Below are positions 39,338 to 56,990 of a DNA stretch of 64,000 nucleotides, piece by piece. The DNA lies in assembly GCF_913776015.1 (NCBI RefSeq), contig NZ_CAJYMD010000053.1:1-64000 (forward strand). Direction: 5' to 3'. Position 1 is the first letter of the stretch; every line of letters begins with the position of its first letter. Position numbers and translations under genes: made by a program. The DNA comes from an uncultured Oxalicibacterium sp. (GTDB lineage: Bacteria > Pseudomonadota > Gammaproteobacteria > Burkholderiales > Burkholderiaceae_D). A model generated the notes under the pieces. It was not told the origin of the DNA. It saw only the letters and a list, made by a program, of their open reading frames with translations, and made no database searches.

Positions 39338-39928
39338 CTATTGCTCCCGCATCGCACGGCGATACTGAATGGCTTCCGCGACATCGTTGCGACGAACGCG
39401 GGGTTCCCCGGCAAGATCGGCAATGGTGCGTGCGACTTTCAGCACACGATGATAGGCGCGCGCCGACCAGTGCAGACGTACCATGGCTTGTCGCAATAGC
39501 TGTTCGCCTTCCTCGTCCGGCTGGCAATAACGATCGATTTCGCTGCTGCCCAGCAAATGATTGAGTTTTCCCTGGCGTTGTATCTGCATTGTTGCCGCGT
39601 TTTCCACGCGTTGCGCGATCGTGGCGGACGGTTCGCCATCGCTTTCCTTCATTAACTCGTCGTGCGGCAAGGCACCCACCTGAATTTGCATGTCGATGCG
39701 GTCCAGTAACGGGCCGGAAATACGCCCTTGATAGCGCGCGACCTGATCGGGCGTGCAACGGCATTTGTTGGCCGGATGGCCGAGGTAGCCGCATGGGCAG
39801 GGGTTCATGGCGGCGATCAACTGAAAGCGTGCGGGATAGTCCGCCTGTCGTGCTGCACGCGAAATCGTGATCTGGCCGGATTCGAGTGGTTCGCGCAAAA
39901 CCTCCAGTACCGAGCGGTGAAATTCGGG
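39338..39928 (-). pseudogene. comM: comM 3' fragment (C-terminal 196 codons), cut off by the island
   Basis: This is the C-terminal part of the ComM/YifB AAA+ helicase. From the first host codon it reads PEFHRSVLEVLREPLESG, AAMNPCPCGYLG with the family's Cys-containing loop, and SGPLLDRIDMQI, ending near residue 508 of the reconstructed protein. It begins exactly at the codon after the Walker B motif. The frame continues upstream into island DNA, but no native start or ribosome site is present. The 5' part is at 56991-57926. ComM promotes branch migration in natural transformation, and this half alone lacks the P-loop. Confidence 0.95.
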
Positions 39929-39930
39929 TA

Positions 39931-39937
39931 TTAGGTT
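39931..39937 (+). repeat. Left-end inverted heptamer of the island
   Basis: TTAGGTT starts two bases inside the left junction. The same heptamer, inverted, lies at 56980-56986 near the right end. The neighbouring bases differ (CCCGC on the left, GCTGT on the right), so similarity at the ends is short, as in Tn554-like elements rather than classical IS ends. Confidence 0.6.
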
Positions 39938-40016
39938 CCCGCAATTGTCTGTCTGTGTTACGTCGACGAGTTTTAGTATTAAAGTCGTAGCTCCTAAGTC
40001 CAGCATGAGGAATGAT

Positions 40017-41189
40017 ATGAAGTTCAAAATAGTTTCATTTCGTCCATCGGCCTTGGCAAAAGAGATCGACGCTGAGCTTAAGTGTTTGAGGCTGAACAAT
40101 CATGAATTCCCTCGCCGCTTCCAAAATCTCAGTTTGATGTCGCTCGTGATTAATGAGCATGACGACATAGAATGGTCAGCTACCGCATATCTCGGATATG
40201 TGGCATCAAAAAGCAGAAGCGTAGTTGGGGATACTGTTCGCTCTTATGCGGAATCTTTAATCGTATGGCTTGATTTTCTAGCATGCGAAAACATACCTCA
40301 TTTAGATGTCAGTGAAGCTGAAATCCAACAATTTCGGCTTTTTCTGTCCAAACAATTTCCATATTCCTTATCTTCAGCAACGATTGCTTTGCGATTGACG
40401 GTCGCAGTTCAATTCGTAGTTTGGAGCCACAAGGAGGGGTGGTCAAAAAGTCGGTTTGGGAAGCAAGTAGAAATGTGCGGAGCGAGTGCGTCGTCATATC
40501 GGCCGAATTCAAGATCGGTTTTCAATCCCTTGAAACCATCCATTTTAGGCCCAAGGATTAGCAGTCGCATTCCGATTCCAGTTGGCCCGGATGTGTTGGC
40601 AAGCTTAGTGTCGATGCTCTCACCTTTGTATAGGCTCATGTTCAAGTGGGGTATCGCCACTGGGTTAAGACGTTTTGAGATATGTAACCTGCAGCTAAGG
40701 TCATTGCCGCAGTCAGATATCTCGCAAAAATCTTTACATGAGATGCGTGTAGATAGAAAAGGTGGGAAGCGAACAAGCATCTATGTCGTCCCACAGTTAT
40801 TGAATGAAACCTTCTGGTATGTGGCCACTGAAAGACCAGAACCTATCCCAGGAGCAGAGAGTTATGTTTTCCTGAATAGCTCTGGAACTCCGGTAAATCG
40901 GACAACGTTGTCTAAGCAGTTTCGTAAAGCCGCCGATCTAGTTGACTGTAAGGCTACGTTTCATGGGTTGCGTCATACTTTTGCTATTACCGCGTTAAAA
41001 ATTCTGGAGGAATCTTCTACTAAGAATGGCAATTTCAACTCCCTAAAAGTTCTGCAAATACTTATGGGCCATTCTTCTTTGCAAACGACAGACATTTATC
41101 TGCGAAGTTTGGAGATTACTTCGCCAGCTGTTGAGAAAGCGCTTCAATTTTTATACGGATATGGAATCTCTCCAGGGATGAAAAAATGA
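40017..41189 (+). CDS. ginA: Tyrosine recombinase, GinA type (first of three)
   Basis: This is a 390-residue phage-integrase-family recombinase. An N-terminal SAM-like DNA-binding domain (about 20-160) precedes a catalytic domain with the full set: Arg in ATGLRRFEI (about 218), Lys in VDRKGGKR, HGLRHTFA, the His of LMGHSS, and nucleophile Tyr in TTDIYLR (about 361). The start at 40017 is chosen because GAGG lies 6 bases upstream. In-frame ATG 40005 and TTG 39945 are alternatives. It is closest in size to Tn554 TnpA (361). Its stop overlaps the start of the second recombinase (ATGA). Confidence 0.88.
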   Translation: MKFKIVSFRPSALAKEIDAELKCLRLNNHEFPRRFQNLSLMSLVINEHDDIEWSATAYLGYVASKSRSVVGDTVRSYAESLIVWLDFLACENIPHLDVSEAEIQQFRLFLSKQFPYSLSSATIALRLTVAVQFVVWSHKEGWSKSRFGKQVEMCGASASSYRPNSRSVFNPLKPSILGPRISSRIPIPVGPDVLASLVSMLSPLYRLMFKWGIATGLRRFEICNLQLRSLPQSDISQKSLHEMRVDRKGGKRTSIYVVPQLLNETFWYVATERPEPIPGAESYVFLNSSGTPVNRTTLSKQFRKAADLVDCKATFHGLRHTFAITALKILEESSTKNGNFNSLKVLQILMGHSSLQTTDIYLRSLEITSPAVEKALQFLYGYGISPGMKK

Positions 41190-42784
41190 GTCGCCTCATC
41201 CCCTTCAACACTAGATCGCTTGGTCTATCTAAAAAAATAAATAAAGCTCTCATCGAGGCGCATCGAGCGCTATGCGGTCACCAAGCTAAAACTACCCAAG
41301 CGCAAACCTGGCGTTGTTTAAGAAAACTTGCGTTATGTATGGTCCAGAATGGACTGGCACATACCGATGCATTGCCCAAAAACATTGTTTCTATTTTCTA
41401 TGATTGGCTTGCACCACAAGTTCTTTGTGGCTCAACGAAGCAGTCTCTATTCAATAGCGTAAGAAGTGTAATTTCTTGGGTGAGTCGCAATCGTAGCAAT
41501 GCAATTGACGGCCCCTTGACCCTTGATGTTCGAAGTTTTCCTCGTCAACCCCCAGCTAGACGTGCGGAAATTGATGAGAAGACTGCGGAGAAGATACTTA
41601 ACTGCGCACTGAGTGATATTGAGAATATCGAGAAGCGTTTGCAGGTTGCTAGTGTTGAGCTTACGGATTTAACCAATCCTAAGACCAAGCTCGTGAATAG
41701 GCTACTCGAGCTTGGTCAAGGCAATTTTCCAACTCAACGAGCAATCGGCACTAGTGGTGAGAGCTTAGCTCGACGAGTGTTGGAGGCTGGCGGTCTACGA
41801 GAGTTGAGTAGATACGTCTTTCTTTCCAATGAGGACTTACTGCCTTTTTACTTAGCCATACAACTTCAAATTGCTGGGAATCCCCACTCAACGGCAGACC
41901 TGCGGCGAAACTGTATAGAAGCGAATCCCTTGCGAGACGATAGAGAGTGGATAGCGTGGGAAAAGCCTCGGGCTAAAAAATTCCAGAGAGTAGATTTTCC
42001 AGCAAAAAAATGGAATTCGGCACCCTCTTTAGTTAGAAGGTTGAAAGCGCTAAATGAGCGACTAGTCCCGAGGGCAGGTGACTTTAAGGATAGGTTGTTT
42101 ATCGCGTGCTCAAATGGAAGGGTAGTCAAGATTCCAAGTGCGCAGTCTTGGCACAACTATCTAACAAATTTCATTAAGGTACATGAGCTCCCAGACTTCG
42201 ATTTTGTAGATCTCCGAAAAACAAATGCGAGACTACATCATCAAGCTGGCGGATCTATTCTTGCCGCTAAAAATAGGTTGAATCACAAGTCAGTCGCTAC
42301 TACTGCTAATTACACGAGCCTAAACGATCGCGCATTTGATCATAATAAGTTTATTGCGCAAAGCCAAGCAGCTTTAAATGAGTTGGTGTTAGCCTCAACG
42401 CTCGCAACTGCCTCATCGCCTGAGATGTCATCTGTATCTGCACAAACCGTATTTGGATTTCTGTGTTCGAATCCTTTCAACGGATATGGAGATTCTCACG
42501 GAAGTAAAGGGCCTTGCGACCATTTTTTTCGGTGCGCAACCTGTCCAGGCGCACTTGTGCCGCTAGACGATCCTTCGATTGTTTCAAAGCTTTTGGCTGC
42601 ACGCGATCATCTTTTGAGTTCAAAAGATGCATTTATTAATCAAGGCCGGCTACCGAGATTTCGGATGCTATATCAACCTACTTTAGATGCAATCGAGCAG
42701 AAGCTATTGCCATTTGTTGCCTCGGAGGTGATGAAGGTAGCACAGCAAATAAAAAAACAATGGGCGTTTCCCGAACTGGAATAA
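41186..42784 (+). CDS. ginB: Tyrosine recombinase-like protein, GinB type (second of three)
   Basis: This 532-residue protein has a diverged tyrosine recombinase catalytic part. It contains Arg in STADLRRNCIE, then FVDLRKTNARL (the first His of the HxxR box is replaced by Val, the Arg is kept), His in RLNHKS and a Tyr in TTANYTS. A Cys/His cluster CDHFFRCATCPG near residue 450 may bind zinc. The third recombinase also ends with such a cluster. Tn554 lacks an equivalent of this gene, while GInts have one. It is translationally coupled to ginA by a 4-base overlap. Confidence 0.82.
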   Translation: MSRLIPFNTRSLGLSKKINKALIEAHRALCGHQAKTTQAQTWRCLRKLALCMVQNGLAHTDALPKNIVSIFYDWLAPQVLCGSTKQSLFNSVRSVISWVSRNRSNAIDGPLTLDVRSFPRQPPARRAEIDEKTAEKILNCALSDIENIEKRLQVASVELTDLTNPKTKLVNRLLELGQGNFPTQRAIGTSGESLARRVLEAGGLRELSRYVFLSNEDLLPFYLAIQLQIAGNPHSTADLRRNCIEANPLRDDREWIAWEKPRAKKFQRVDFPAKKWNSAPSLVRRLKALNERLVPRAGDFKDRLFIACSNGRVVKIPSAQSWHNYLTNFIKVHELPDFDFVDLRKTNARLHHQAGGSILAAKNRLNHKSVATTANYTSLNDRAFDHNKFIAQSQAALNELVLASTLATASSPEMSSVSAQTVFGFLCSNPFNGYGDSHGSKGPCDHFFRCATCPGALVPLDDPSIVSKLLAARDHLLSSKDAFINQGRLPRFRMLYQPTLDAIEQKLLPFVASEVMKVAQQIKKQWAFPELE

Positions 42785-42786
42785 GT

Positions 42787-44604
42787 ATGATTGGTGCCGG
42801 TACGATTTCGTATAAGGGAAGTAAAACCTGGCGATTATGGCCGCACCCTCTATATCCAGGTCGAATATTGACAGTTAACTGGGAGTCTCTCTTTGGGACG
42901 GCCTCTAATGGAACAAAACATCAACGAGAGTATTTGAAAAGGAGTACAAAAGAGTTGATGTTTGAAATGATTCTGTTATCCGAGTCACGTGTTGGAAGAT
43001 TGAGTCCTGGGACGGTTCAAGTAACTTTCCAAAAACTAAGGTGCTTAGTTCGCTGGATGGTGGCCAGAAACATTTGGCGATTCAACTTGATCAGTGAGCA
43101 AGATGCACTAGCGTTTCTGGAGTCTAGATTAAAACGCAAAAGTCCTCTGCGCCGTGACGAATCCCGTGTGGTAACCGACAGAACGATCGCAGAATATGTG
43201 ACCTTTCTAGAGACCTTATGGATACTTCGCGACCGATACACTTCAGCACTCAAATTTTCACCTAAAGGGATTCCAGAAATTACGCAAATAATTTCTCAAT
43301 GCAAGGTGATTGAGAGCTGGAAGCCTGTTGCAATGTCAGATGCGATAAAAATGCTCTCAACGGCTTTAGACTGGCAAAAGCACTACCCACTAATTCTTTC
43401 GATAGAAAGCGTGTGTCGCAGGGAAAGAAGGAAATGGGTTGGTGTATCTAAAAGCCAAAGGGCAATGCTGTCTAAAAAATTATATAAAGGAATTGAAAGT
43501 TCTGATGAAGGGACCAGGGTTAGACAAATTGTTTTTCCACAAAATCATAATTTCTCTTCGGATTACATAGAACTAGTACGCAGTGCACTGGGTGCATCTT
43601 TGCTTGTCATATTATTATTCAGTGGAATGAGAATTGGCGAAGTTCTATCTTTGCGTCGTAAATGCCTTGAGCTGATCTCTCATTCTGACAAAGAAAAATA
43701 TTGGTATGTCAACGGTATAGCAGGTAAGAAGAAGGGAATGGCTAGGAAATGGATTCTGGCTTCGCCGGCCGTTGATGCAATTAATTTCGTCAAGGAGCTT
43801 TCTCGCCCTCTATCTGGCAACGCTATAAATACACCGTTGTTTTTAAAGCGGCCTGGAGGAAGTTCGGCAATAACGCATTCTTGTACTTTTACTCAAATGA
43901 GCGGTATGGAGGCGAACCACCTGTTGAGACACTTCATCGCAAAAAGAGTCGATATAGCATCTTTTACACCGGCACAATTCCATGCACATAGGGCTAGAAA
44001 AACCTTTGCCCGCTTTGTTGCGTTACGCGACAAAAGTGCGCTCGAGTCACTAGCTTATCACTACGGGCATCTATATACGGCAGTATTAGATCGATCATAT
44101 GTTGGCACCGATTTTGATTTAGAAGATTTACTGCGCGATGAGAACCAGAGGGAGATGAGGGAGGGCTTAACCGATTTGCTCAATGCAACTGTGATTGGAG
44201 GCAAAGCTGGAGATAAGCTGATGAAGTTTCGGCAGGCGCAAAGTAGTTTCAATGGCAAAGCAGCTTTGACAAACATGGTAGATCAACTCATTCAAGACGG
44301 AGTTGTTCTTGCTCCCTGTGATTGGGGATACTGTGTATATGCAAAAGATCTTTCCATGTGTGGCGGGAGCGAGGTTGGACCAAATGCTGAGCGTCGCTCA
44401 CCCTCTGTGTGTGCATCTTGTAAGAACTTCGCTGTAACTAAGGCCTACTCAGCTTGGTGGGAGCGACGTTATGAGCAGCAAGAAGGGTTTTTGCGGAAGG
44501 AAATGCTGCCTGATCAAACACGTAGAGTAGTGGAAAGGCAGTTCGATTTCACCAAACAGATTTTGAGCAGTTTGGTTAAGAAAAATGAAAAAAAATCTCG
44601 GTAG
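42787..44604 (+). CDS. ginC: Tyrosine recombinase, GinC type (third of three)
   Basis: This 605-residue recombinase is similar in size to Tn554 TnpB (630). Catalytic residues are seen as Arg in FSGMRIGEVLSLRR, Lys in AGKKKGMARKW, HRARKTFARF, His in YHYGHLY and Tyr in VLDRSYVG. The C-terminal end has a Cys-rich segment (CDWGYC, MCGG, CASCKNF) that may bind zinc. The start is uncertain: ATG 42787 has GGA 8 bases upstream and lies two bases after the ginB stop codon, and ATG 42760 would overlap ginB. The 3' end overlaps ginD by 20 bases. Confidence 0.87.
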   Translation: MIGAGTISYKGSKTWRLWPHPLYPGRILTVNWESLFGTASNGTKHQREYLKRSTKELMFEMILLSESRVGRLSPGTVQVTFQKLRCLVRWMVARNIWRFNLISEQDALAFLESRLKRKSPLRRDESRVVTDRTIAEYVTFLETLWILRDRYTSALKFSPKGIPEITQIISQCKVIESWKPVAMSDAIKMLSTALDWQKHYPLILSIESVCRRERRKWVGVSKSQRAMLSKKLYKGIESSDEGTRVRQIVFPQNHNFSSDYIELVRSALGASLLVILLFSGMRIGEVLSLRRKCLELISHSDKEKYWYVNGIAGKKKGMARKWILASPAVDAINFVKELSRPLSGNAINTPLFLKRPGGSSAITHSCTFTQMSGMEANHLLRHFIAKRVDIASFTPAQFHAHRARKTFARFVALRDKSALESLAYHYGHLYTAVLDRSYVGTDFDLEDLLRDENQREMREGLTDLLNATVIGGKAGDKLMKFRQAQSSFNGKAALTNMVDQLIQDGVVLAPCDWGYCVYAKDLSMCGGSEVGPNAERRSPSVCASCKNFAVTKAYSAWWERRYEQQEGFLRKEMLPDQTRRVVERQFDFTKQILSSLVKKNEKKSR

Positions 44605-44965
44605 CAAGTCCGGTATTTCTCTCAACGTAAGGCAGCGCCTCGAAGCCGCTTTTCTGGTGCATACGTCAAATAATCCTGGTGTAGGTATATCTATCGTTGA
44701 ATTGTGCAGGCAGGCTGCCGTCAGTCGAGCGACGCTGTATGCGCATCATCCAGATCTACTGGAAAAAATTAAACAGTTAGGAAGTTTTACGGCTAAGGTC
44801 GCGTCTCCTAAGGTGAGAAGAACAAATGAAGCGGCACACTTGCAGAGAACCATAAAAGCACTGAGGTATATCTGCGTTGAGCTAAATCTCGAATTAAGAC
44901 GCCAGTCTCAACAGAATGAGTTGTTGCGTGCCGAAATAAAATCCCTCAGATCTAAAAATAAGTAG
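44585..44965 (+). CDS. ginD: Small recombination accessory protein, GinD/TnpC type
   Basis: This is a 126-residue basic protein. An N-terminal helix-turn-helix (ISIVELCRQAAVSRATLYAH, about 36-55) is followed by a C-terminal coiled coil (KALRYICVELNLELRRQSQ and NELLRAEIKSLRS). The size equals that of Tn554 TnpC (125), a helper that affects orientation and efficiency of transposition. It overlaps the end of ginC, completing a four-gene operon that ends in a perfect terminator. Confidence 0.8.
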   Translation: MKKNLGSKSGISLNVRQRLEAAFLVHTSNNPGVGISIVELCRQAAVSRATLYAHHPDLLEKIKQLGSFTAKVASPKVRRTNEAAHLQRTIKALRYICVELNLELRRQSQQNELLRAEIKSLRSKNK

Positions 44966-45002
44966 CAGCGCGGGAAGTTCTCAAGCTCCTCTCGCTCCCC
45001 GG

Positions 45003-45032
45003 ATCGGCTCGATGGGGCGAGCCGATTTTTTT
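45003..45032 (+). terminator. Terminator of the ginABCD operon
   Basis: ATCGGCTCG and CGAGCCGAT form a perfect 9-bp stem with loop ATGGGG, followed by seven T residues. It isolates recombinase transcription from the cargo. Confidence 0.92.
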
Positions 45033-45066
45033 ACTACGGTCTGTGTCCCAAGCTCATGACAAAAAC

Positions 45067-45486
45067 ATGCCATTAGAAAATCACGCTCATTTCATTGCCT
45101 TCTCTTTATCTTTCCTAACATTCATGGGCGTTATCCGAGTACGGAACGCTAATCCCTCTGGGCATACAAGTCTATTCGTTGGGTTGTTGTTAATTGGGCT
45201 GGCAGTATGGACATTGAACAGTTTTGAGGTCATGAAGATCTTCTTTACGCTGCTACGTGACGTGAAGAAATTGGATTCTGAGCAATTTCAAATTGCGAGT
45301 CAGGCAATTAGTCTTTGGACGGTTATACTCCCGGCCGTAATGGCTTCTATCGGTGCGAATTTCATATCCTCATGGGCTCTTTATGAAAAATCACCGAACC
45401 CCGAGGCGGAACATCTGGAGGCAATTGCTAAGCACCTCAAGTTTTTAGAGCGGCAGCAATCTGAGACAAGAAATGCCGAGCTGTAG
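45067..45486 (+). CDS. Small membrane protein, unknown
   Basis: This protein of about 139 residues has two or three membrane segments (about 8-24, 38-56 and 85-105) and a short charged C-terminal tail (LEAIAKHLKFLERQQS). No family was recognised. No good ribosome site was found. GTG 45043, eight codons upstream, would start only 11 bases after the terminator, so ATG 45067 is preferred. It is the first cargo gene after the recombination operon and converges on the exonuclease gene. Confidence 0.6.
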   Translation: MPLENHAHFIAFSLSFLTFMGVIRVRNANPSGHTSLFVGLLLIGLAVWTLNSFEVMKIFFTLLRDVKKLDSEQFQIASQAISLWTVILPAVMASIGANFISSWALYEKSPNPEAEHLEAIAKHLKFLERQQSETRNAEL

Positions 45487-45501
45487 TGAGAGAGGAATTC
45501 A

Positions 45502-45987
45502 CTAGCCTACGGTTCGGAAGTCAATTTTTTGATTTTGAGCGTATGCGTGCTTAAGTGCCTTTGCATCATAAAGAGCATGATGGCGGGACAATCGTTCTCG
45601 TATGTAAAACGAATGCTTATCTGCTTCACATAGATTCGATACGCGCTTGGGACGACACCATGCCGGTTGACGATAATTAAGAACGTCGCAAAACAAATCC
45701 CAATCCGTAGAGTAGTCATAAATTATTTCAACGTTCGAAGTGGCTTCTCTATTTTTTTCTAGCCATAAAAGCATTGCCGTACCTAATTCTGCTAAAGAAA
45801 ACATTGCGCCCTCTATCTGACCTAGTTGTGGAACAACCGCTTCGAGAACGAACGGGCTGCAGGCTTGCAACTCGAAAGGGACTTCGCCGTAGAACTCTGC
45901 ACCTTTACTGGTGACCATTCCAATGCTTATCAGCTCTGTATTAATAAAGTCTGTGAATTCGGTATCGATGAAGATTTGTTGAGTCAT
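45502..45987 (-). CDS. DEDD-type 3'-5' exonuclease, RNase AS (Rv2179c)-like
   Basis: This 161-residue protein has an RNase H-like exonuclease fold. IFIDTEFTDF (Asp and Glu of motif I) is followed by ELISIGMV, STDWDLFCDVL (motif II Asp) and HHALYDAKALKHAY (motif III His and Asp). This spacing fits small stand-alone DnaQ-like nucleases such as mycobacterial RNase AS. The ATG at 45987 has AGGTGG upstream. GTG 45999 is an alternative. It is transcribed away from the three-gene operon, sharing a 180-base control region with it. Confidence 0.8.
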   Translation of the reverse strand: MTQQIFIDTEFTDFINTELISIGMVTSKGAEFYGEVPFELQACSPFVLEAVVPQLGQIEGAMFSLAELGTAMLLWLEKNREATSNVEIIYDYSTDWDLFCDVLNYRQPAWCRPKRVSNLCEADKHSFYIRERLSRHHALYDAKALKHAYAQNQKIDFRTVG

Positions 45988-46007
45988 GTAGTTATCCACC
46001 TAACTAG

Positions 46008-46024
46008 GTTCTGTATGACAGAAC
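46008..46024. promoter_or_regulatory. Inverted repeat in the divergent control region
   Basis: GTTCTGT-ATG-ACAGAAC is a perfect 7-3-7 inverted repeat located 20-37 bases upstream of the exonuclease start and about 145 bases upstream of the NTPase gene. It has the size of a dimeric repressor operator. The binding protein is unknown, and the island's XRE or ribbon-helix-helix protein are candidates. Confidence 0.5.
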
Positions 46025-46152
46025 GTACGGATCCCCAAATTATGGGGGCAGATTCGTACTAATCCTGATTTATTATGGAGCTTCCCATTTGCATAAAAAT
46101 GCATGCCTCCGACACAGTTCAGTTCGAAGAGATGTGTCATTTTCTAATTAAT

Positions 46153-46162
46153 CCGATATCGG
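46153..46162. promoter_or_regulatory. Palindrome just before the NTPase start codon
   Basis: CCGATATCGG is a perfect 10-base palindrome ending 6 bases before the GTG start at 46169. Other dyads lie between here and 46008 (CCCC...GGGG around 46034-46049). Such a position could block translation or transcription when bound. This is inferred. Confidence 0.35.
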
Positions 46163-46168
46163 ATATAG

Positions 46169-49100
46169 GTGAAAACAGTGCTATCGCTAGAAGCAAAAAA
46201 ATTAATCCGTAGATGTAAGATTAGAAAGCGCAGAGAGGGGCGAAGCCTAGTTAAACGGCTCAAATTTCACAGCGCGGCTATTAAATTTGGGTTGTCAGAA
46301 TGGAGGCAATTTTTAGTTAGAGGTACAAGTTCAAGCTATAACTTTTCATTTGAGACGTTAACTCCAACTGAGGTAAAGCCTGATCAGTACCGCCGGTATG
46401 AGACAGAGCTTTTGAAAGGATTGCTTCATAGAGATGTTCGCAACATTGCAATTACAGGCAAGTATGGAGCTGGCAAAAGTAGCCTCTTGAAGACCTTTGC
46501 AGAAGCTCATACAGAGTACAACTATGCGTGGATTTCCTTGGCTTCGTTCGGAAAAGAGCGACTTCGCCCGGAGAACAACATAGAGTCTGCATCCGACGAA
46601 GAAAACAGCGCGGTATTAAGTCAAAGCGAAACCGATAATGAGAGTAACAGTGAGCTTATCAAGCAGATTGAAGAAACTATCGTACAACAACTGCTGTATT
46701 CCGTTCCGTCTCAATCGTTACCTCAAACACGCTTAAAAAGAATTACGCAAGTCCCAGCTAGCAGTGTAATTTGGTACACGATTTTAAGTTTGGGATGGGG
46801 TGTCTCGGTTGCATCATTGTATCTCGCGAATTTTGGCAGTTACGGATTAACACATCCACAGTGGGCGATCGAAATGTTGTCCACCATACCCGCAGAATGG
46901 GCATTAAGCATTGCTTTAGTAAGTTCTCTATATGGTCTCCACAAACTGCTCAGGATACTGCTAAATATCAAAATTGATGGCCTGACAGTAAAAGGGGGAA
47001 AGGTAGAGATTGCCAAAGAAGGTACAGCCCTGCACAAAAATGTGGATGAGTTGATCTACTGCTTCGAACAAAGTGAAATCGATGTCGTCATCATTGAGGA
47101 TCTGGACCGTTTTAATATTCAAGACGTGTTTTTCAGGCTTCGAGAAATCAATTTCATCGTGAAGAACTGTCCACAAATCACGCGGCCAATTCACTTCATT
47201 TACGCGTTGCGTGAGGAATTTTTCGGATTAGGTGAAAAAACAAAATTCTTTGATCTCGTTATCCCAATCATTCCTTTTGTAAATAGCGCGAATTCGGGGG
47301 TTCTGTTGATGCAACTCCTAAAAAATAAGAGTTTAAATGCTGACCTTAGCGCAGAGCTCATCGAAACTCTTTCATATCACCTTGACGACATGCGGTTGAT
47401 TAAAAATATCGTCAATGAGTATGACATTTATCTAAGTGCTCTTAGGAAAAGCATCACTAATCTGGATTGCAACCGATTGTTTGCTATGACATTTATTAGA
47501 AATGTCTACCCTGATGAGTACGTCGATCTCACAAATCGAAAAGGTGTTCTATATAACCTTTTACTCGCTTTTGATAAACATATCGATTCTCAACATAGAG
47601 AGTTGCAACAGCAGCTAAAAATTCAACTGGAAGAGTTAGATCGCTATCGGAGTCTTTTCACTACTAAAAAAAAGGAACTCCGTTCTCTTGTATATCTGCG
47701 TATGAGGGAAATGGCTGGTGTCTCTCACGAGGACACGGTATCGTATTTGCTGGATGACAATCGAACACGCATAAGCGTTAACGACTTTATTGACGATGAA
47801 GACATTTTTAACAAACTTACTTTAAATTCCGTTACTGTAACTCTGCATGCGGACGCTACCAATTATAGCCAGACAGGTACCGCCGTCAAAGTAAGCCAAC
47901 TGATGGCTGCGGGGTTCCCACCATATAAGTCTGCATTCACGCTGTTGGAAAAATCTGAGCACGATCGATCGGTTCAAATTGAGGTTCTAAAAAAGAATAT
48001 TAGAAAAATTAATTCCCTAGGATTTGACACGGCTCATAAAGATGAAGTTTTTTTAGCAAGCATTCCTAAAATCTGTCCTGATCTGCGAGCTCTTCCGTAT
48101 CTAGTGAGGTCAAGCTTTTTCGGAAGCGATTACCAAGATTATATTGGCTACTTTTATCCCGGAGCACAAACTTCAAACGATAAAGAATTTTTGGTGGCTA
48201 TCCGAAACAGAGAGCTATGTCCGGTTTCAGTAAAGCTTGATGACCCAGGCGCAGTGCTCAAAAAGTTAAAATCGAGCGAACTGGCTGAAGGTCGCGGTCT
48301 AGTTTGTGCCCTAATAGCTTATTTGGACACTGCAGCTGTTGGCTCTCAGGACGCGATGATACTTGCGACTATTCTTGAGGATGCACATCGGCACATTGAT
48401 AGGTTAGTCGACGTACTTCTGGAGCTGAAACATCAACCGTTTCACAACTTATTCAGAGAATTAAGTCTGTGTAATCCAGAATGTTTGTCCCTCATATTCA
48501 CACAAGCTGAGCGACCTTTAGATTCTTACGATCAAGAGTTGCTGTTGCATAGAATCGTTAGTTCGCTTTACGCTGAAGACTTCGAATCTATTCCACGCGA
48601 ACATCTTGAGGCATTCGTAACAGCGATTGAGAAGTTTGACATGGTATCAAGCCTCTACCTGGACTTAGAGTCAGGTTTGGGCGGATGGGGCTGGTTGCGA
48701 CAGCGCCCGATACAGTTCCACAATCTAAGCGAATCAAATTCACTAGATGCACTTCGGTACCTGATAGATTTGCGATGCGTGAAACTTAATCTGCGCACGC
48801 TAAAAGTTATCTGCAATAGATTATGGGACAACCGGCGTCCTGGAACTATCAGCTACACAGAGTTAAAACGGTTGCCGAGTGCGACTATGATGCAGCTAGT
48901 CAACGAAAACTTGAATTTCGTGGTAGGCGAACTCTTAACTCAGGATGGAGAGTTAGAAGAGTCAGAAGAATCCTTGTTATTTCTTTTGTCCGAGGTAGAT
49001 ACCACTTTAGGTAGTGAGTTGATAGAAAAAACTTCTGTCGCAGTGGAAAACATTCAGTCTGTGAGTGAAGACCACTGGGTCAGTTTAGTAAGCAAACTTC

Positions 49101-49996
49101 GCGTGAAGTTAAATGCTTCTAATCTCTCACTGTATTTCGAGAGGTTTATTGTCGAAGAGGCGAATCAGCTTGCGGCTGAGGCATTCTTTCATTATCTCGA
49201 AGCGAATTTGTCCGATCTCCGAGTTGCGTTGAGAGGGGATACTAGCGATCTCAGAACGCGTTTGCAAGTGTTCCTGCTTGAAGACGAAGATCTAGATGAT
49301 GAAAGATTCAGAAATATATTCGTTGCGCTTTTGGGGCCCACTAATAACTTCTCCACAGCGAACGCCTCAGCTCATAGGTGGAAGACTGTGGTGGCACTTA
49401 AAAATGTTCCTTACTCCTCGGAATTGCGAGAGGTTGTCGCTGCACAAGGAGAAGACTTGCTGTCGGAATATTTATTAAGGCATTGGGGTGAGGCCGCTAA
49501 TGATGTCGATCCTAACGCAATTCCGATTGCGGTTTTGGTGAAGATTTCTACAAATAATGAGGTAACTCTTCAGAAAAAAATCGAGCTATGGTCACGATTA
49601 GATGCCAATCGAGTCGCAAATAGTTTGCAAGGAAAAAACGAATTAATGCGTATCTGTGCTGAGGCGAATCGACAACAAATGTTTTTAGCCTTGCCTAGTA
49701 ACTCAGAGACTTTGTTCGAAGCAGTATCTGATAGTTCACTAGCAGAGGAGTTACGAAAAGAGGGGCTCATCCAGCTTTTGCAATATCTTTCACAGAGTAA
49801 GCTAAATACTATTCTCAATACGTTTTCAGAAAGTGGTTTCGGCGTACTGGCACAACGATCGAAATACAAATTTTCGCTTGAGGATACCGATGTCAACTCT
49901 AGATTGACGGAAGCTCTAAAAAATAATGGCTGTATAGCGTCTTATTCTAGAAGGGGCGATGTAATCACAGTCAATATGAAACGATCGCCTAGATAA
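46169..49996 (+). CDS. YobI/KAP-type P-loop NTPase with two internal membrane segments
   Basis: This is a 1275-residue protein. After a basic N-terminus, LTPTEVKPDQYRRYE leads into Walker A GKYGAGKSS (about 97-105). Two hydrophobic membrane segments (about 199-221 and 240-262) are inserted before Walker B VVIIEDLDRF (about 306-315), followed by FIYALREEFFGLG. This layout matches YobI-like and KAP NTPases, membrane-anchored ATPases frequent in phage-defence and prophage loci. Residues about 500-1275 are helical with no recognised domain. GTG is the start codon. It is the first gene of a three-gene operon, with the next starting 13 bases after its stop. A sensing or power-supplying role is inferred. 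Confidence 0.8.
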   Translation: MKTVLSLEAKKLIRRCKIRKRREGRSLVKRLKFHSAAIKFGLSEWRQFLVRGTSSSYNFSFETLTPTEVKPDQYRRYETELLKGLLHRDVRNIAITGKYGAGKSSLLKTFAEAHTEYNYAWISLASFGKERLRPENNIESASDEENSAVLSQSETDNESNSELIKQIEETIVQQLLYSVPSQSLPQTRLKRITQVPASSVIWYTILSLGWGVSVASLYLANFGSYGLTHPQWAIEMLSTIPAEWALSIALVSSLYGLHKLLRILLNIKIDGLTVKGGKVEIAKEGTALHKNVDELIYCFEQSEIDVVIIEDLDRFNIQDVFFRLREINFIVKNCPQITRPIHFIYALREEFFGLGEKTKFFDLVIPIIPFVNSANSGVLLMQLLKNKSLNADLSAELIETLSYHLDDMRLIKNIVNEYDIYLSALRKSITNLDCNRLFAMTFIRNVYPDEYVDLTNRKGVLYNLLLAFDKHIDSQHRELQQQLKIQLEELDRYRSLFTTKKKELRSLVYLRMREMAGVSHEDTVSYLLDDNRTRISVNDFIDDEDIFNKLTLNSVTVTLHADATNYSQTGTAVKVSQLMAAGFPPYKSAFTLLEKSEHDRSVQIEVLKKNIRKINSLGFDTAHKDEVFLASIPKICPDLRALPYLVRSSFFGSDYQDYIGYFYPGAQTSNDKEFLVAIRNRELCPVSVKLDDPGAVLKKLKSSELAEGRGLVCALIAYLDTAAVGSQDAMILATILEDAHRHIDRLVDVLLELKHQPFHNLFRELSLCNPECLSLIFTQAERPLDSYDQELLLHRIVSSLYAEDFESIPREHLEAFVTAIEKFDMVSSLYLDLESGLGGWGWLRQRPIQFHNLSESNSLDALRYLIDLRCVKLNLRTLKVICNRLWDNRRPGTISYTELKRLPSATMMQLVNENLNFVVGELLTQDGELEESEESLLFLLSEVDTTLGSELIEKTSVAVENIQSVSEDHWVSLVSKLRVKLNASNLSLYFERFIVEEANQLAAEAFFHYLEANLSDLRVALRGDTSDLRTRLQVFLLEDEDLDDERFRNIFVALLGPTNNFSTANASAHRWKTVVALKNVPYSSELREVVAAQGEDLLSEYLLRHWGEAANDVDPNAIPIAVLVKISTNNEVTLQKKIELWSRLDANRVANSLQGKNELMRICAEANRQQMFLALPSNSETLFEAVSDSSLAEELRKEGLIQLLQYLSQSKLNTILNTFSESGFGVLAQRSKYKFSLEDTDVNSRLTEALKNNGCIASYSRRGDVITVNMKRSPR

Positions 49997-50009
49997 GCAT
50001 CTCAAATTC

Positions 50010-53000
50010 ATGGATTTAATTCGCCCGTTGTCAGCCGTGTTGAGCGCTGTTGCCCCATCTCTTGTGAAGCGTTATAAGCAAATGAGAGCTGCGCGGGCTC
50101 CAGAGTCAGTCCCGATATCTATCTCAGATGACTTATACGAACGGATTTTTTCCAGACTCGGAGTTGAAGCTGAACAGGATAAGACTTGGAGGAGCTATCT
50201 AAGTAAACTTGATGCAACCTACATCAGTCCCGATGTTTTTAAGAAACCAGCTTATCGAGATTGGCTTGGTACAGACTTGGTGCGAAGAGATCTTAGAAAC
50301 CTCGTGCACGCTCAGATGTTGAAGGTCGCGGTGCCTCTAGATGTTAAAGATCGACTCATCAATGAATTCTGCAATGCAACGGGAGAAAGTCATCATTATG
50401 CAGAGTCGGCGATCACACTCATTACGGCAGTGCTTCGTGCAGGCGTTTTCGCCGATATTAAGGACACTGGCACTGCAACCTTGGTGACCGCTAGCCATGA
50501 GGATATCTCAAGGCAACTCCAAAAAATTCATGAGACCGCAAATGGCAAGAGTCCACTAGCGAACTCATACGTAAGTCAAACAGCAAAAAGTGAATTGGAA
50601 CGTATCCTTGTGAGGAGAGCTACTCCTGAAGAGGATTTCCGCGGGCAACTGCAAAAGTTTCTGTGTGAGCTTGATGCTGGTGGAAAGTTTGCGCAAGCTG
50701 AGCGTGCACTCGAAATGGAAGCCACTTGCTGGCTAGCAAGGGCCGAAGCATGGGGTGGAGAAACAGATGCGGCGGAAAAAAAATTACAGGAATTAGCCAA
50801 TTCTGGATTTGAGATACCTGAGGCCGCTCAGGCTTTGCTTTTAATGTCAAAAGGCGACGCAAATACTGCAATGCAGTTACTCAGAGATTCGAAAAATTCG
50901 GATAGCCGCAGTGTACTTTTTCAAATTCTTTTTAAGCAAAAAGGTGCTAAGGAGGCATGCGACTATTTAGATGGTTTAGGCGATCTTTCCGCCGACTTCT
51001 TTACTCCAGTTGGCTGGAATAATGTCTGTCTTGCGCTGAAGATAAATGACGAGATTTATAAGGCAAATAAAATCCTTATAAATCTACCTAGCGCGATCAG
51101 GACCAAATGCACCTACTTAGCGTACCAATACGCCGTCTATCACCTATTGCCATTGGTCTCGAAGGAAGGTCATTATCATTTATTGGATGCTGGCTTTAGC
51201 TCGCTGCTGGATCATGTTTTAGAAGGAATTGATGTTCAACAAGCACGGGAAAAGGCTTTAATAGCCGCAAAAGAAACAGAGGCCTTGGCTAAAGAAGTTG
51301 GGGATGATCGTGTTGCTAAAAAATGCGAGCTGGGCATAAGACATTTAAAGCTGCTTGATTCCTCTACTAAGAAGGAAGAGGCTGATGCAATTCGAAGCGC
51401 GATGGCTGACGGGATCAAGGCGGTGGAGCTTATTTCAATTGCAAGGGCTCATTCTATTGAGTTTGACCCTGAGCCTATTGAGAAGTACTTGGCAAACGCT
51501 AAGAGGACGGGGGGATTTTCTTTAGATCAGCTGAACGCAAAGTTTGACCTTCTTGATCACCATACCAGGTATGCAGAGTTTGTAACTTTCTTGGATGAAG
51601 AATGGGATGCCCTTGCCGCTGTTTACGGTCCTTCACCGCTGATCGTAAAAAAAGTTCAGGCTTTAGCCGAACTAGGGTTGCACGAAAGTGCTTCGGAATT
51701 CTTGGAAGAACATCGACAGTTATGCGAGGAGCAATTAGTTAATCGGCTCGATTTGATGCTTTCTGATAAGCGGGGAGAGGATCCGACAAAGCATGCGATT
51801 GATCTTTTCATGCGGACTCAGTCGTTACCCGATTTGATGAATGCGGTCAGCGTACTAAAGGCGCGCGGAGCATGGAGGCGCTTAATGCCACTAGCTCAAG
51901 AACTTTACTCAAGATCACCTACTTCTGCACACGCTATGGTTTGTGTCCGATGTATGCGAGAGAACCAAATTTCGGCTAATGAAATTAGTGCGTTCCTGGA
52001 AAGCATTAGCAGTCAAGTGGAACAGCACGATGACATGCTTTCACAGCGTGCTTGGTTGCTCCATGAGTCAGGAGATTTTGAAGGCGCAAAATTACTTAAC
52101 GATGTACTGATGACCCGGCGTGGTGATGCTCAAGATCTTTTCTTGGATATGAACCTTGCAATTTCAATGGGCGACTGGGAGAGATTTTCATCGATAGTTG
52201 TAAAAGCCAAGGATATAAGCGATCGCTTGGATAATCGAACGTTGCTTAGCTTGGCAAAGCTAATAGGATTTTCTGATCAGAATGAGGCGCTTGCATTGGC
52301 GCAGAAGGTGGCGGCAAGAGCGTCTGATGATGCGGAGGCTTTAATTGGTGCTCATCAAATAGCTATTTCAGTTCGCCGAGATGACCTCGCTATGCCATGG
52401 ATGCATAAGGCGGCTGAACTATCTAAGGGAACTGGTCCAGTCAAGGTTTTGGATGGCTCCGAAGTAGTGGAATACTTTAAAAGAAATGCCAAAAGCTGGC
52501 AAACCAAGAATGATCTCTTTAGGGAGGCGAAAGTACCATTACACATGGCAGTGGCCATGTTCAACATCCCTTTGTTCAACTTGCTCGGGGGGGCGGCCCG
52601 ATCTAACGCGACTAGCGATCCTCGCCTCCGCGTTCCTATCCCTATTAGATCGGGAAATAGATTGCTAGTAGACATTTCGCATATAACGCGAATCGCGCTA
52701 GACATTTCTACATTGATTTTATTAAGTGAAATGGGGCTTTTGGAGATGGTTCTGAGGAGATTTGACGAAGTGTATATCTCTTCTCGGGTGATGGAAGTTT
52801 TGTTGGATGAGCGAGATAAGGTCGTATTCCACCAGCCATCACGAATAACGGAAGCTAAATTTCTTATCGCGCAAGTTGCCAGCGGCCGACTTAGCACTGT
52901 GGACGTCGATGGAGGACATGCGCTTAGCTCAGAGATCGGAGAGGAATCCGCATCTTTGCTAGAGGCTGCAAAAAATTCGGGTGGTTACTATATTCATCCT

Positions 53001-54200
53001 GGGGTGATTTATAACGCTGCGACATTTATGGAGAAGCCCGCTTCGATTGACGAATACTCTCCATACGTTAGAGACTCAATTGATGTAGCCAACGCTTTAT
53101 GCGCGGAGGGGTATATAACTGAGGCGGTTTTGGAGGCCGCCACAAGAAAACTCGAAAGTACTAACCCAATTCCTCGTGGAGGATTGGATGACGACAGGGC
53201 CCTTTACTTAGACAGGCTTGCGATCACGTACTTAAAGCAGAGCGAGATCTTTGACCATTTACTCTCTTCCTCCAGAAAATTATTCATTCATTCTAGCTTG
53301 CATGAGGAATGGATTGCCCTACTTAGAACCGAACATACCGATTCGGAAATGATTGAAGCGATTGGGAAGTTAAGGAGATCTTTAAGAGATGCATTCGCTT
53401 CTAAGAAGTTAAAAGTGTTGGCTCAAAGTCCTCGTAAAGAAAATTGGCAGGATGTAAGAACTCATATTCTTGCTGACATGCTTAACGATACATCTCCCGT
53501 GGAGGTCGTTTGTATTGATGATCGTATGCTCAATACAGAGCGAGGGCTATTGGACAGAAAAGGTAAATCTACGGAGATAGTTACTACCTTTGATCTGTTG
53601 GATGATCTGGTACAAAGAGGTCAATTAAGTATCGAAGATCATTGGGCAAGAATGCATCTGCTGCGTAATCAATGCTTTTACTGTCTGCCGATATCCATTG
53701 ATGAACTTCGCTCACATGTGAGCAAGTCTAAAGTTTTAAATAAGAAGCTAGTGGAAACGGCCGAACTCAAGGTGCTTCGTCAATACATCGCTAGATTGAA
53801 TGCATCAGGAGTATTGTGCACGCCTAACGACGAAATTTATAAGCAGTCGATACGCCTCACAGGTACGTTCCTTATCCGTGAAATTTGGAACGACGCGTGT
53901 GTTCCAGCGGAAGAAGCAGCCATCAAAGCTAACTGGCTCTGGAACTTCGTGGTGCTAAAAACGGATTTAACTTGGAGCCCGAATCCGACAGAAGATGATA
54001 AATATGAAGAGCAAATAAAGACGCAGCTAGTAGCTCTATTCGGCTTGTTGACCGATGATCCGATCCGCCGATCGGCGCATGCGGCGTGGTTAGACGAAAT
54101 TTTAAGAAGCTACGTTCCGGCAAATTGCGATGTTATTAATAGAATTGTGGAATATTTTGTTGATGTGCTTGTGCAAACCTTGGATGTAAAAGGCTCATAA
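50010..54200 (+). CDS. Large solenoid protein with C-terminal PIN-like nuclease domain
   Basis: This is a 1396-residue protein. The first 850 residues are helical repeats of TPR-like character (for example ALEMEATCWLARAEAWGG, AAEKKLQELANSGFEIPEAA). Around residues 885-1200 there is a PIN-like domain: ALDISTLILLSEMGLLEMV, VYISSRVMEVLLDE and VVCIDDRMLN supply the expected strand/acidic-residue order, and VTTFDLLDDLVQRGQL is typical of the domain's end. The last 200 residues are helical. PIN domains cut RNA, so this is a candidate effector. It begins 13 bases after the NTPase gene and ends 14 bases before the next gene. The PIN assignment is by eye. Confidence 0.7.
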   Translation: MDLIRPLSAVLSAVAPSLVKRYKQMRAARAPESVPISISDDLYERIFSRLGVEAEQDKTWRSYLSKLDATYISPDVFKKPAYRDWLGTDLVRRDLRNLVHAQMLKVAVPLDVKDRLINEFCNATGESHHYAESAITLITAVLRAGVFADIKDTGTATLVTASHEDISRQLQKIHETANGKSPLANSYVSQTAKSELERILVRRATPEEDFRGQLQKFLCELDAGGKFAQAERALEMEATCWLARAEAWGGETDAAEKKLQELANSGFEIPEAAQALLLMSKGDANTAMQLLRDSKNSDSRSVLFQILFKQKGAKEACDYLDGLGDLSADFFTPVGWNNVCLALKINDEIYKANKILINLPSAIRTKCTYLAYQYAVYHLLPLVSKEGHYHLLDAGFSSLLDHVLEGIDVQQAREKALIAAKETEALAKEVGDDRVAKKCELGIRHLKLLDSSTKKEEADAIRSAMADGIKAVELISIARAHSIEFDPEPIEKYLANAKRTGGFSLDQLNAKFDLLDHHTRYAEFVTFLDEEWDALAAVYGPSPLIVKKVQALAELGLHESASEFLEEHRQLCEEQLVNRLDLMLSDKRGEDPTKHAIDLFMRTQSLPDLMNAVSVLKARGAWRRLMPLAQELYSRSPTSAHAMVCVRCMRENQISANEISAFLESISSQVEQHDDMLSQRAWLLHESGDFEGAKLLNDVLMTRRGDAQDLFLDMNLAISMGDWERFSSIVVKAKDISDRLDNRTLLSLAKLIGFSDQNEALALAQKVAARASDDAEALIGAHQIAISVRRDDLAMPWMHKAAELSKGTGPVKVLDGSEVVEYFKRNAKSWQTKNDLFREAKVPLHMAVAMFNIPLFNLLGGAARSNATSDPRLRVPIPIRSGNRLLVDISHITRIALDISTLILLSEMGLLEMVLRRFDEVYISSRVMEVLLDERDKVVFHQPSRITEAKFLIAQVASGRLSTVDVDGGHALSSEIGEESASLLEAAKNSGGYYIHPGVIYNAATFMEKPASIDEYSPYVRDSIDVANALCAEGYITEAVLEAATRKLESTNPIPRGGLDDDRALYLDRLAITYLKQSEIFDHLLSSSRKLFIHSSLHEEWIALLRTEHTDSEMIEAIGKLRRSLRDAFASKKLKVLAQSPRKENWQDVRTHILADMLNDTSPVEVVCIDDRMLNTERGLLDRKGKSTEIVTTFDLLDDLVQRGQLSIEDHWARMHLLRNQCFYCLPISIDELRSHVSKSKVLNKKLVETAELKVLRQYIARLNASGVLCTPNDEIYKQSIRLTGTFLIREIWNDACVPAEEAAIKANWLWNFVVLKTDLTWSPNPTEDDKYEEQIKTQLVALFGLLTDDPIRRSAHAAWLDEILRSYVPANCDVINRIVEYFVDVLVQTLDVKGS

Positions 54201-54214
54201 CATATCCGCGCGCT

Positions 54215-56098: not shown

Positions 56099-56390
56099 TC
56101 CATCGTGCCTGTGAGGCGCGCGCCATTTCTGTTGCATTTCAGGTGCGGGCACTCCAGTTAGATAAAAGTAATCGCAGAGTTCAACAGGTTTACAACGCTT
56201 AGGATATATCTCAATAAGAAGTGGATGTTCCGAAGTTTGTATGGCACGTTAAGGTCGCCCTCACAGCATCTCCAGTTGTACGTACTCCTTTCGGAGCCCA
56301 TAGTTGTCCCCTATATGTTTAATTTCCGCCCGCATAGGTTCGTGATAACTCGTCTATGTGGGGCAGCCAGATCAGACAACACTCACCGGC
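56099..56390. other. Non-coding stretch at the right side of the island
   Basis: About 290 bases lie between the three-gene operon and the small ribbon-helix-helix gene. Only short frames without start signals are present. No clear terminator hairpin with a T run was seen after the operon. Confidence 0.45.
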
Positions 56391-56561
56391 TTAACGATTA
56401 GTTTTAGATGTTTGAACTAGTTCTTTAATGACGCGAGGAACAGATACGGGACTTCCTCGTTTTAGAGTTTCCGCTGCAGATATCTCGAGCAGGTACTCGT
56501 AAAGCTCAGCAGGAAACCTGACTAGTACTGGTCTCGTTTCGAACGAAGGTTTAACTTTCAC
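56391..56561 (-). CDS. Very small ribbon-helix-helix-like protein
   Basis: A 56-residue frame runs from GTG 56561 to TAA 56391. It reads RPVLVRFPAELYEYLLEISA, then a short basic loop and VSVPRVIKELVQTSK. This beta-strand/helix/helix pattern, with a strand rich in alternating residues and a conserved Pro before the helix, fits MetJ/Arc/CopG-type DNA-binding proteins. GGA lies 8-10 bases before the start. It is divergent from the XRE gene with 93 bases between them. No toxin gene adjoins it, so a regulator of the island is more likely than an antitoxin. Confidence 0.6.
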   Translation of the reverse strand: MKVKPSFETRPVLVRFPAELYEYLLEISAAETLKRGSPVSVPRVIKELVQTSKTNR

Positions 56562-56631
56562 ACGTCATCCATAATTAAAGTGATATAAATAAAGAACCCT
56601 AAATGGGCCGTAAATGCCGTGGCCGTGCATG

Positions 56632-56649
56632 CATGATAAATCGATCATG
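56632..56649. promoter_or_regulatory. Inverted repeat before the XRE-type gene
   Basis: CATGAT-AAATCG-ATCATG is a perfect 6-6-6 inverted repeat that ends 5 bases before the ATG at 56655. It overlaps where the ribosome would bind, as expected for an autoregulatory operator of a dimeric HTH repressor. This is inferred. Confidence 0.5.
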
Positions 56650-56654
56650 ATGAA

Positions 56655-56903
56655 ATGCAAAGGTCCCGGGAAATTGTCGAAGTCGATGAGAGAGAGTTGA
56701 AAGCGCTCGGCGCGACAATTAGGATGCTACGAAAAGAGATAGGCCTCTCTCAAGAGGCTCTGGCCGATCTTGCGGGACTTGATCGAAGCCATATGGGGCG
56801 CATAGAGCGAGGAGAGCGAAACTTAGCAGTTGTGAATTTGCTTAAAATAAGGCGCGCGCTCGGCATTTCCGGGGCGCAATTGATGGCCGTTGCCGGGCTG
56901 TAA
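56655..56903 (+). CDS. XRE-family HTH regulator
   Basis: This 82-residue protein is almost entirely one Cro/C1-type HTH domain: TIRMLRKEIGLSQEALADLAGLDRSHMGRIERGERN covers helices 1-4 (shown in part: GLSQEALADLAGLDRS). It resembles small controllers of restriction-modification and mobile elements. It is the last gene before the right junction and divergent from the ribbon-helix-helix gene. A direct inverted repeat upstream suggests autoregulation. Candidate targets are its own promoter and the cargo operon. Confidence 0.85.
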   Translation: MQRSREIVEVDERELKALGATIRMLRKEIGLSQEALADLAGLDRSHMGRIERGERNLAVVNLLKIRRALGISGAQLMAVAGL

Positions 56904-56979
56904 CCATTACAAGACCCGATCAAAAATTGTTTGCTTAGGCTTGGACGGATAGGCAAAACGGACAGGCAGTGCTAACAGC

Positions 56980-56986
56980 AACCTAA
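56980..56986 (-). repeat. Right-end inverted heptamer of the island
   Basis: AACCTAA on the plus strand is the reverse complement of TTAGGTT at 39931-39937. Four bases (GGAC) separate it from the host junction, compared with two bases (TA) at the left. These spacer bases may be part of the crossover core left from an earlier insertion. Confidence 0.6.
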
Positions 56987-56990
56987 GGAC

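Follow-up and report, generated by a model that had tools for sequence, protein, structure and literature searches.

The question raised by the 64,000-nucleotide stretch of DNA analyzed here (hereafter the window; positions 1 to 64,000 of contig NZ_CAJYMD010000053.1, assembly GCF_913776015.1, from an uncultured Oxalicibacterium sp.) is to which kind of mobile element a four-gene operon at positions 40017-44965 belongs, and which site that element uses. An initial annotation had described a GInt-type operon encoding three tyrosine recombinases and a small helix-turn-helix (HTH) protein. The operon alone, however, is an incomplete unit. It lies leftmost in a probably mobile island of 17,056 bp (39931-56986) that interrupts comM (yifB), the branch-migration helicase gene of natural transformation, and the whole of this island is the unit. 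We think it likely that the island is an integrative element of the GInt/SE superfamily, where SE stands for strand-biased circularizing integrative element, and part of a clade for which comM is the home site.

The island and the interrupted comM gene

The features on which this reading rests are as follows:
39338-39930, minus strand: comM (yifB) C-terminal half, resuming after LFLDE (Pfam Mg_chelatase and Mg_chelatase_C; in-frame joining)
39925-39930, no strand: putative attL 6-bp core CGGGTA, which fits native comM (Leu-Pro codons) on comparison with intact comM cores of relatives
39931-39952, plus strand: left terminal motif TTAGG-N10-TGTCTGT, conserved among islands
40017-41189, plus strand: A, small tyrosine recombinase of 390 amino acids in the IntA/GinA position (Pfam PF00589, E 1.5e-14; family profile match to SE IntA)
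41186-42784, plus strand: B, degenerate recombinase-fold protein of 532 amino acids, a paralogue of C (30-row alignment, B-C profile match, AlphaFold model, PDB match)
42760-44604 (or from the later ATG at 42787), plus strand: C, large tyrosine recombinase of 614 amino acids in the IntB position (21-row alignment; profile match to SE IntB)
44585-44965, plus strand: D, small HTH protein of 126 amino acids in the Srap/GinD/TnpC position (position; relatives; weak HTH match to NF006928, E 3.6e-4, far under the cut-off)
about 45002-45033, plus strand: intrinsic-terminator-like hairpin and T run
56961-56986, minus strand: right terminal motif, reading TTAGG-N13-TGCCTGTC on the reverse strand (comparison of right ends)
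56987-56992, no strand: putative attR 6-bp core GGACCA, a foreign footprint by its lack of fit to comM
56993-57926, minus strand: comM N-terminal half, ending at LFLDE (Pfam ChlI and Mg_chelatase)

The two halves of comM lie on the minus strand on either side of the island, and the break falls within the Walker-B codons, after LFLDE. Joining the flanks through the left core restores the reading frame and, because comM is uninterrupted once the flanks are joined at 39930 and 56993, the unit is drawn as the island and not as the operon. A search of the window genome with the comM N-terminal half gave one match, the split gene itself, and the island stretch is poor in guanine and cytosine (40-48% at 40-57 kb, compared with 52-61% over the 40 kb that precede it). 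The island is probably mobile DNA: its anatomy, ends, target, insertion site, core asymmetry and homologies are all read from the sequence, and from them we infer its movement and a circular intermediate.

Relatives of the operon occupy the same site in other bacteria. A scan for close relatives of protein C gave 78 loci (90 candidate stretches) from alpha- and betaproteobacteria, a few Acidobacteria, one 'Mycobacterium sp.' and metagenome-assembled genomes, with no gammaproteobacterial genus name among them; more remote operons are present on Klebsiella, Serratia and Pseudomonas plasmids. When 99 loci (L027-L125, some overlapping and many too short leftward to reveal the target) were searched for comM, its C-terminal half adjoined gene A, broken at the same residue, at six: Massilia (L048), Herbaspirillum (L049), Pelomonas (L050), Burkholderia aenigmatica (L051), Roseateles (L052) and Rhodoferax (L054). 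These six are among the nine nearest relatives, the other three being two Cupriavidus plasmids (L027 and L053) and Burkholderia sp. OK233 (L096), and the comM N-terminal half was located for every one of the six (in two pieces in Roseateles, on a separate contig in Rhodoferax). OK233 has a comM N-terminal half with the right terminal motif at the same site, the eighth such comM gene, and G583, from the same class and another order, carries a degraded relative of the operon likewise inside comM. A 41-row tree of C, rooted on the GInts, groups nine comM rows with two from Cupriavidus plasmids in a single 11-member clade (support 100/99); several rows of the tree, those of G583, the SEs and the GInts among them, sit on long branches, and their exact placement is uncertain.

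Some of these loci show further peculiarities. The OK233 operon (L096, L200) has a broken intA and intB and lies about 113 kb from the comM N-terminal half, an arrangement that is perhaps a decayed large island. Cupriavidus necator pBB1 (L027, near 4476), a member of the comM clade, keeps the left end TTAGG-N10-TGTCTGTC beside a different gene, a placement best read as a change of target. Roseateles noduli (contig NIOE01000007; L196, L201) has, besides the Walker-B island, a second comM interruption at about residue 64, consisting of roughly 31.6 kb of other DNA.

Island ends and the six-base-pair cores

The left end reads CGGGTA/TTAGGTTCCCGCAATTGTCTGT and the right end, on the reverse strand, TGGTCC/TTAGGTTGCTGTTAGCACTGCCTGTCC, the slash marking the border between core and island. 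Inverted ends are a feature of the comM islands, with TTAGG at 8/8 left ends and CCTAA at 8/8 right ends. The longer motif TTAGG-N10-TGTCYGT is present at the left end in 7/7 islands (window, L048-L052 and L054), and the G583 island has TTAGG without that spacing.

The cores beside these ends differ between the two sides. Intact comM genes of relatives fit CNGGNA at 17 of 18 sites, and one of 19 intact-comM loci gave no match to the search string. The left cores (window, L048-L052 and L054, G583) are CGGGTA, CCGGCA, CCGGAA, CGGGCA, CCGGGA, CGGGCA, CGGGCA and CGGGCA, all eight comM-like, and the right cores (window, L048-L052 and L054, OK233, the order differing from that of the left list) are GGACCA, TGTGGT, CGGGCA, GCAAAA, CATGGG, CGACGA, CCTCAA and GGGGCA, with only one comM-like (Fisher p 0.0007; for the seven two-ended islands 7/7 against 1/7, p 0.0023). 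As a 6-bp core preserves the frame, an open frame after joining cannot separate the left from the right core; codon conservation can. Experiments with SE-6945 have shown that the 6 bp of the target remain at attL and those of the donor show at attR (PMC9345347), and the asymmetry of the comM islands, seen by comparison, agrees with what such an SE/Tn554 footprint rule predicts.

If the island is such an element, A and C, which have full catalytic sets, would cut at the TTAGG ends beside the 6-bp spacer, and B (a C paralogue without Arg-I and box-II His) and the small HTH protein D would help assemble the complex at the ends. The circular copy would take along 6 bp from the left of the donor copy; at insertion, the target's own 6 bp would stay on the left and the carried 6 bp would mark the right end. 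The insertion would thereby split the Walker-B codons of comM, lower natural transformation and deliver the defence-like cargo.

A multi-copy cousin is found in Bradyrhizobium sp. BTAi1, with six 6,534-bp copies (five chromosomal and one on a plasmid; L103, L105-L108 and L111) that showed no mismatch in any of the 15 pairs compared; it is reported to be very rare for a replicon to hold more than two SE copies (PMC10214605). The copies have the same TTAGG ends, and each lies in a different gene, the codons of insertion corresponding among the six. Pfam ParB_N is matched by five of these truncated targets (E 5.9e-11 to 7e-4, two above the cut-off), and the sixth (L106) is similar by eye. The left core of the plasmid copy, GCGCTG, equals the right core of three other copies, a match that is suggestive only, as GCGCTG may be a common codon pair here; right cores for which no donor was found among the copies are GCGCTT (two copies) and GACATG (the plasmid copy). 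The BTAi1 elements belong to a sister lineage of the comM clade.

A doubtful alternative is that the island is a stranded remnant, immobile although its operon reads intact. Protein C is, in fact, single-copy in the window genome, and the island's left core is a single synonymous change away from CGGGCA, found as the comM core in several relatives. However, all four open reading frames and both ends are intact, C retains its catalytic residues, A has a full Phage_integrase match, and joining the flanks restores comM exactly.

The recombinase operon between SEs and GInts

The coordinates, the four genes and the overlaps given for the operon were borne out: open reading frames of 390, 532, 614 and 126 codons overlap by 4 bp (A/B), 25 bp (B/C, or a 2-base gap if C starts at the later ATG) and 20 bp (C/D). 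The perfect terminator said to close the operon was likewise recovered as a perfect stem followed by seven T, and is unexceptional as a fold (z -1.27; 19 of 200 shuffles fold equally well). The same four-gene order was found again in alpha- and betaproteobacterial relatives, and it is therefore not a chance run of open reading frames.

C matches Pfam weakly (E 8.7e-5, under the Pfam cut-off), and neither B nor D matches any Pfam model at E 0.001. Across 21 rows, R291, K323, R413, H437 and Y447 of C are invariant and H410 nearly so, in addition to four conserved Cys; the residues of B that are invariant in 30 rows are N232, P233, K260, R344, H367, Y376 and four Cys (C427, C444, C450 and C453). 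The initial annotation was thus correct that B keeps the Arg, the His and the Tyr and has Val341 for the box-II His, a position that aligns with His410 of C and is variable among relatives. It missed the additional loss of Arg-I, seen in the profile alignment where N232-P233 stand opposite M290-R291 of C. With a profile match between B and C at E 2.3e-17 over 422 columns, B is a paralogue of C in which Arg-I and the box-II His have been lost and K, R, H and Y retained. To call B dead would overreach, given that R, H and Y are kept, and the structural or specialised role proposed for it fits the evidence. The AlphaFold model of B (pLDDT 82.4, pTM 0.59) has XerH (5jk0) as its best PDB match (E 9.3e-7) and also matches XerA, an integron integrase, the Tn1549 integrase and Cre; with TM-scores of only about 0.3-0.5, the domain arrangement may differ from that of the matched structures.

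As references we used SE-6283 and SE-6945 of Vibrio alfacsensis plasmid pSEA1, located by gene content, and two Escherichia coli ssb islands (L206 and L207), identified as GInts by target and layout. Genomes of E. coli were opened because in 449 of the 5,375 with a match the ssb query was nowhere covered to 80%; of four inspected for a split ssb region, three had the recombinase trio and one (NZ_AP045770) did not. The Klebsiella operon L031, used as a probe of E. coli, found no match.

The two SEs resemble the window in having a small recombinase, a degenerate recombinase-fold protein, a large recombinase and a small protein, and the window operon follows the SE order intA-tfp-intB-srap with a large catalytic IntB. 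They also share with the comM islands the inverted terminal motifs, the target's 6 bp on the left and the donor's on the right, and the use of few targets; comM as the target sets the window clade apart. SE Tfp proteins are defined as being without the RHRY set; in B, Arg-I and the box-II His are lost and R344, H367 and Y376 are invariant. B retains the Tyr, unlike the second protein of SE-6945, and homology between the two is unclear. A is 23% identical to IntA of SE-6283 and has no blastp match to that of SE-6945 at E 0.01. A 21-member profile matches A to SE IntA at E 1.6e-25 and C to SE IntB at E 1.6e-22 over 565 columns. With an eight-member profile of the window clade, A and C still match the SEs (4.5e-18 and 1e-11), B matches neither SE nor GInt, and C matches no GInt.

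That the island is a strict GInt (ginABCD, direct repeats, circularising excision), merely using comM, seems unlikely to us. The E. coli GInts do share with the window a four-gene operon of ginABCD type at one end (three recombinase-type proteins and a small protein), variable defence cargo and a defined target, and the 21-member profile finds their GinA (E 2.1e-19, with A) and, moderately, their GinB (2.7e-7, with B). However, the published description of GInts places imperfect direct repeats of 10-17 nt on their flanks (PMC5385486), and both E. coli islands keep CCGTTCT on each side, whereas the window island has no direct repeat above chance at its ends (best 11-nt match 7/11, matched or beaten by 286 of 300 random pairs). 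C matches GinC over 96 columns only (E 3.2e-6, nearly equal to its match with GinA, 1.2e-5), compared with the 565 columns of SE IntB. A phylogeny with known recombinases, which had been put forward as a check on the GInt assignment, was run for C with GInt and SE rows, and a 100/100 branch separates the two GInts from the other 39 rows.

What stands of the GInt-type assignment is the set of three recombinase-type proteins and a small HTH protein, within the GInt/SE/Tn554 group; its strict form does not, given the inverted ends and the SE-like A and C. An extra second recombinase cannot serve as the GInt hallmark that it was held to be, as SEs also have an extra recombinase-type protein beyond Tn554. 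Assignment to the GInts from architecture alone was dropped after the end and profile tests. It is fair to say that the label is acceptable in the loose sense of the wider Tn6571 family, for which 'GInt' is sometimes used (PMC10121019), and unsupported in the strict sense. SEs and GInts are reported to have no BLAST similarity (statement in PMC10214605), and in agreement with this a direct comparison linked them through A alone, weakly (62%, E 7.6e-5), B and C giving no match. The clade lies inside the GInt/SE superfamily and, because two of the three recombinase-type proteins (A and C) and the ends match the SEs better, is placed nearer to the SEs than to the two tested GInts.

Among the GInt proteins, the broad profile pairs B best with GinB, at 93% (GinC 10%), and C best with GinC, at 88% (GinA 81%, GinB 33%). 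An idea taken from papers, that the order of the catalytic and degenerate large proteins is swapped between GInts and SEs, was dropped on these matches; the third proteins of the E. coli GInts keep R-I, HxxR and Tyr by eye. As B and C are paralogues, cross matches are expected (B matches C of L212 at 91%), and the B and C comparisons are weaker than their figures suggest.

Other operons are informative as well. That of the Pseudomonas aeruginosa megaplasmid pNDTH9845 (L212), possibly of Tn6571 type, matches A, B and C by position at 99-100% profile probability and has the same kind of degenerate second protein; a P. putida plasmid operon matches A, B and C less strongly (98-99%, broad profile). 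Tn554, compared by description only, resembles the window clade in its 6-bp carry-over and TnpC-like small protein (PMC10214605), and differs in that tnpABC has no counterpart of B. RIT elements, with three recombinases of 315-410 amino acids that all have the catalytic Tyr and with 34-bp terminal inverted repeats (PMC10214605), were ruled out by the sizes of 390, 532 and 614 and by the fourth gene. No paper on comM-targeting SEs or GInts was found among the matches listed in a search of open-licence PMC text, bioRxiv excluded.

Placement of the island by some other mechanism, Tn7-like as for AbaR or by a phage integrase, with the operon as mere cargo, is highly improbable. Although unrelated elements are known to target comM (PMC7508600, PMC11472951), gene A lies directly beside the same end in the window as well as in 6/6 relatives with a comM C-terminal half, the ends accompany the operon even in BTAi1 with its other target genes, and no DDE or Tn7-type transposase family match was found among ten island proteins scanned.

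Several points weigh against our reading of the island as a GInt/SE-superfamily element at home in comM. B matches SE Tfp at only 54% (E 1.3e-4, broad profile), and not at all with the window clade alone. PSI-BLAST from SE Tfp and Srap is reported to have found no SE homologues in alpha- or betaproteobacteria (PMC10214605), and by that sequence definition the element falls outside the SEs. Taken alone, the inverted repeat of the window island is weak (9/11, equalled by 22 of 300 random pairs), so that its support is the conservation across islands. CNGGNA was defined after the sites had been seen, the intact-comM search string contained the consensus, and the left core of the window was judged native by comparison with comM of relatives. 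The Massilia right core is comM-like, possibly through comM-to-comM movement. Finally, of 399 genomes sampled from the order, one had the comM-junction pattern, that of the window itself, a lower bound given that the pattern misses the G583 type.

Islands of this type in comM accordingly look rare. Allowing one mismatch gave 2 further matches in 369 genomes, which were counted as chance because a reversed-pattern control gave 6, and missed the known G583 comM island. Protein B matched in 5 of 399 genomes, the window included and two marginal; class-wide profile searches (369 genomes each, with at most three candidates scored per genome) returned mostly short Xer-type domain matches and serve as leads only.

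Cargo and consequences for the host

To the right of the operon, the island carries:
45043-45486, plus strand: protein of 147 amino acids with hydrophobic stretches by eye (list of open reading frames)
45502-45999, minus strand: DEDDh 3'-5' exonuclease-like protein, 165 amino acids (PF16473, 5.7e-6, just below the cut-off; PADLOC DEDDh, 2e-4)
46169-49996, plus strand: YobI-type P-loop NTPase, Tmn-like, 1275 amino acids (PF20693, 3e-100; PADLOC Tmn, 3.7e-78)
50010-54200, plus strand: large protein of 1396 amino acids with HTH_upst_double_PIN and PIN-TPR-GreABC matches (PF24407, 1.2e-10; PF20698, 1.8e-8)
54215-56098, plus strand: protein of 627 amino acids without a family match (three weak plasmid matches)
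56655-56903, plus strand: Xre-type HTH protein, 82 amino acids, close to the right end (model matches; the Massilia and B. aenigmatica loci encode proteins 48-52% identical to it)

The cargo differs between comM islands and, from model matches, looks anti-phage defensive. Nine proteins hand-picked from four other comM islands (those of Pelomonas and Roseateles not included; model matches and no survey) gave matches to SspB, SspC, SspD and, weakly, a restriction enzyme in Massilia, to GajA and GajB (Gabija) in Rhodoferax, to a PifA/QatA-like NTPase in Herbaspirillum, and to HNH-effector-like and kinase-like proteins in B. aenigmatica. In the two types of E. coli GInt the cargo includes Avs4 and a type I restriction-modification set, which accords with PMC10121019. 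As the 627-residue protein has only three weak plasmid matches, the three-gene cluster at 46169-56098, made up of the Tmn-like NTPase, the PIN/TPR-type protein and this protein, could be an undescribed defence system.

Two cargo types recur. A DEDDh exonuclease-like protein is common to the window and the Herbaspirillum island (L049, 15904-16413; 43% identical); a B. aenigmatica protein resembling it was set aside, having no Pfam match. An Xre-type HTH protein occurs in three comM islands (window; L048, 12164-12406; L197, 2846-3088), near the right end in two, although Xre proteins are common and this occurrence may mean little.

The window genome has a ComEC-family (Competence) gene, and the split of comM should lower natural transformation. 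When Acinetobacter baumannii was cured of AbaR and comM thereby repaired, transformation is reported to have risen about 300- and 1,000-fold (PMC7508600), and comM interruptions are ascribed to AbaR as well as to other defence-carrying elements (PMC11472951). The Acinetobacter AbaR islands resemble the window island in interrupting comM, and differ in their Tn7-like machinery, which is unrelated to the window operon (PMC11472951).

A broader picture, which is possible and which we put forward tentatively, is that of a defence-carrying clade specialised on comM, in which the 6-bp carry-over of SEs extends outside the reported SE host range, the B proteins link Tfp and GinB, and SEs and GInts are branches of one superfamily whose B arose from a copy of C. 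If this were true, each insertion would cut the Walker-B codons and so lower the route by which the island could be replaced with an empty allele. Mobile elements have interrupted comM time and again in Acinetobacter, and the reason for this preference is a question raised in PMC11472951; in the islands described here, comM is a regular site for an unrelated recombinase family that brings defence-like genes. The 6-bp asymmetry provides a sequence-only test of the copy-in rule, applicable to many genomes, and the clade may join SEs and GInts.

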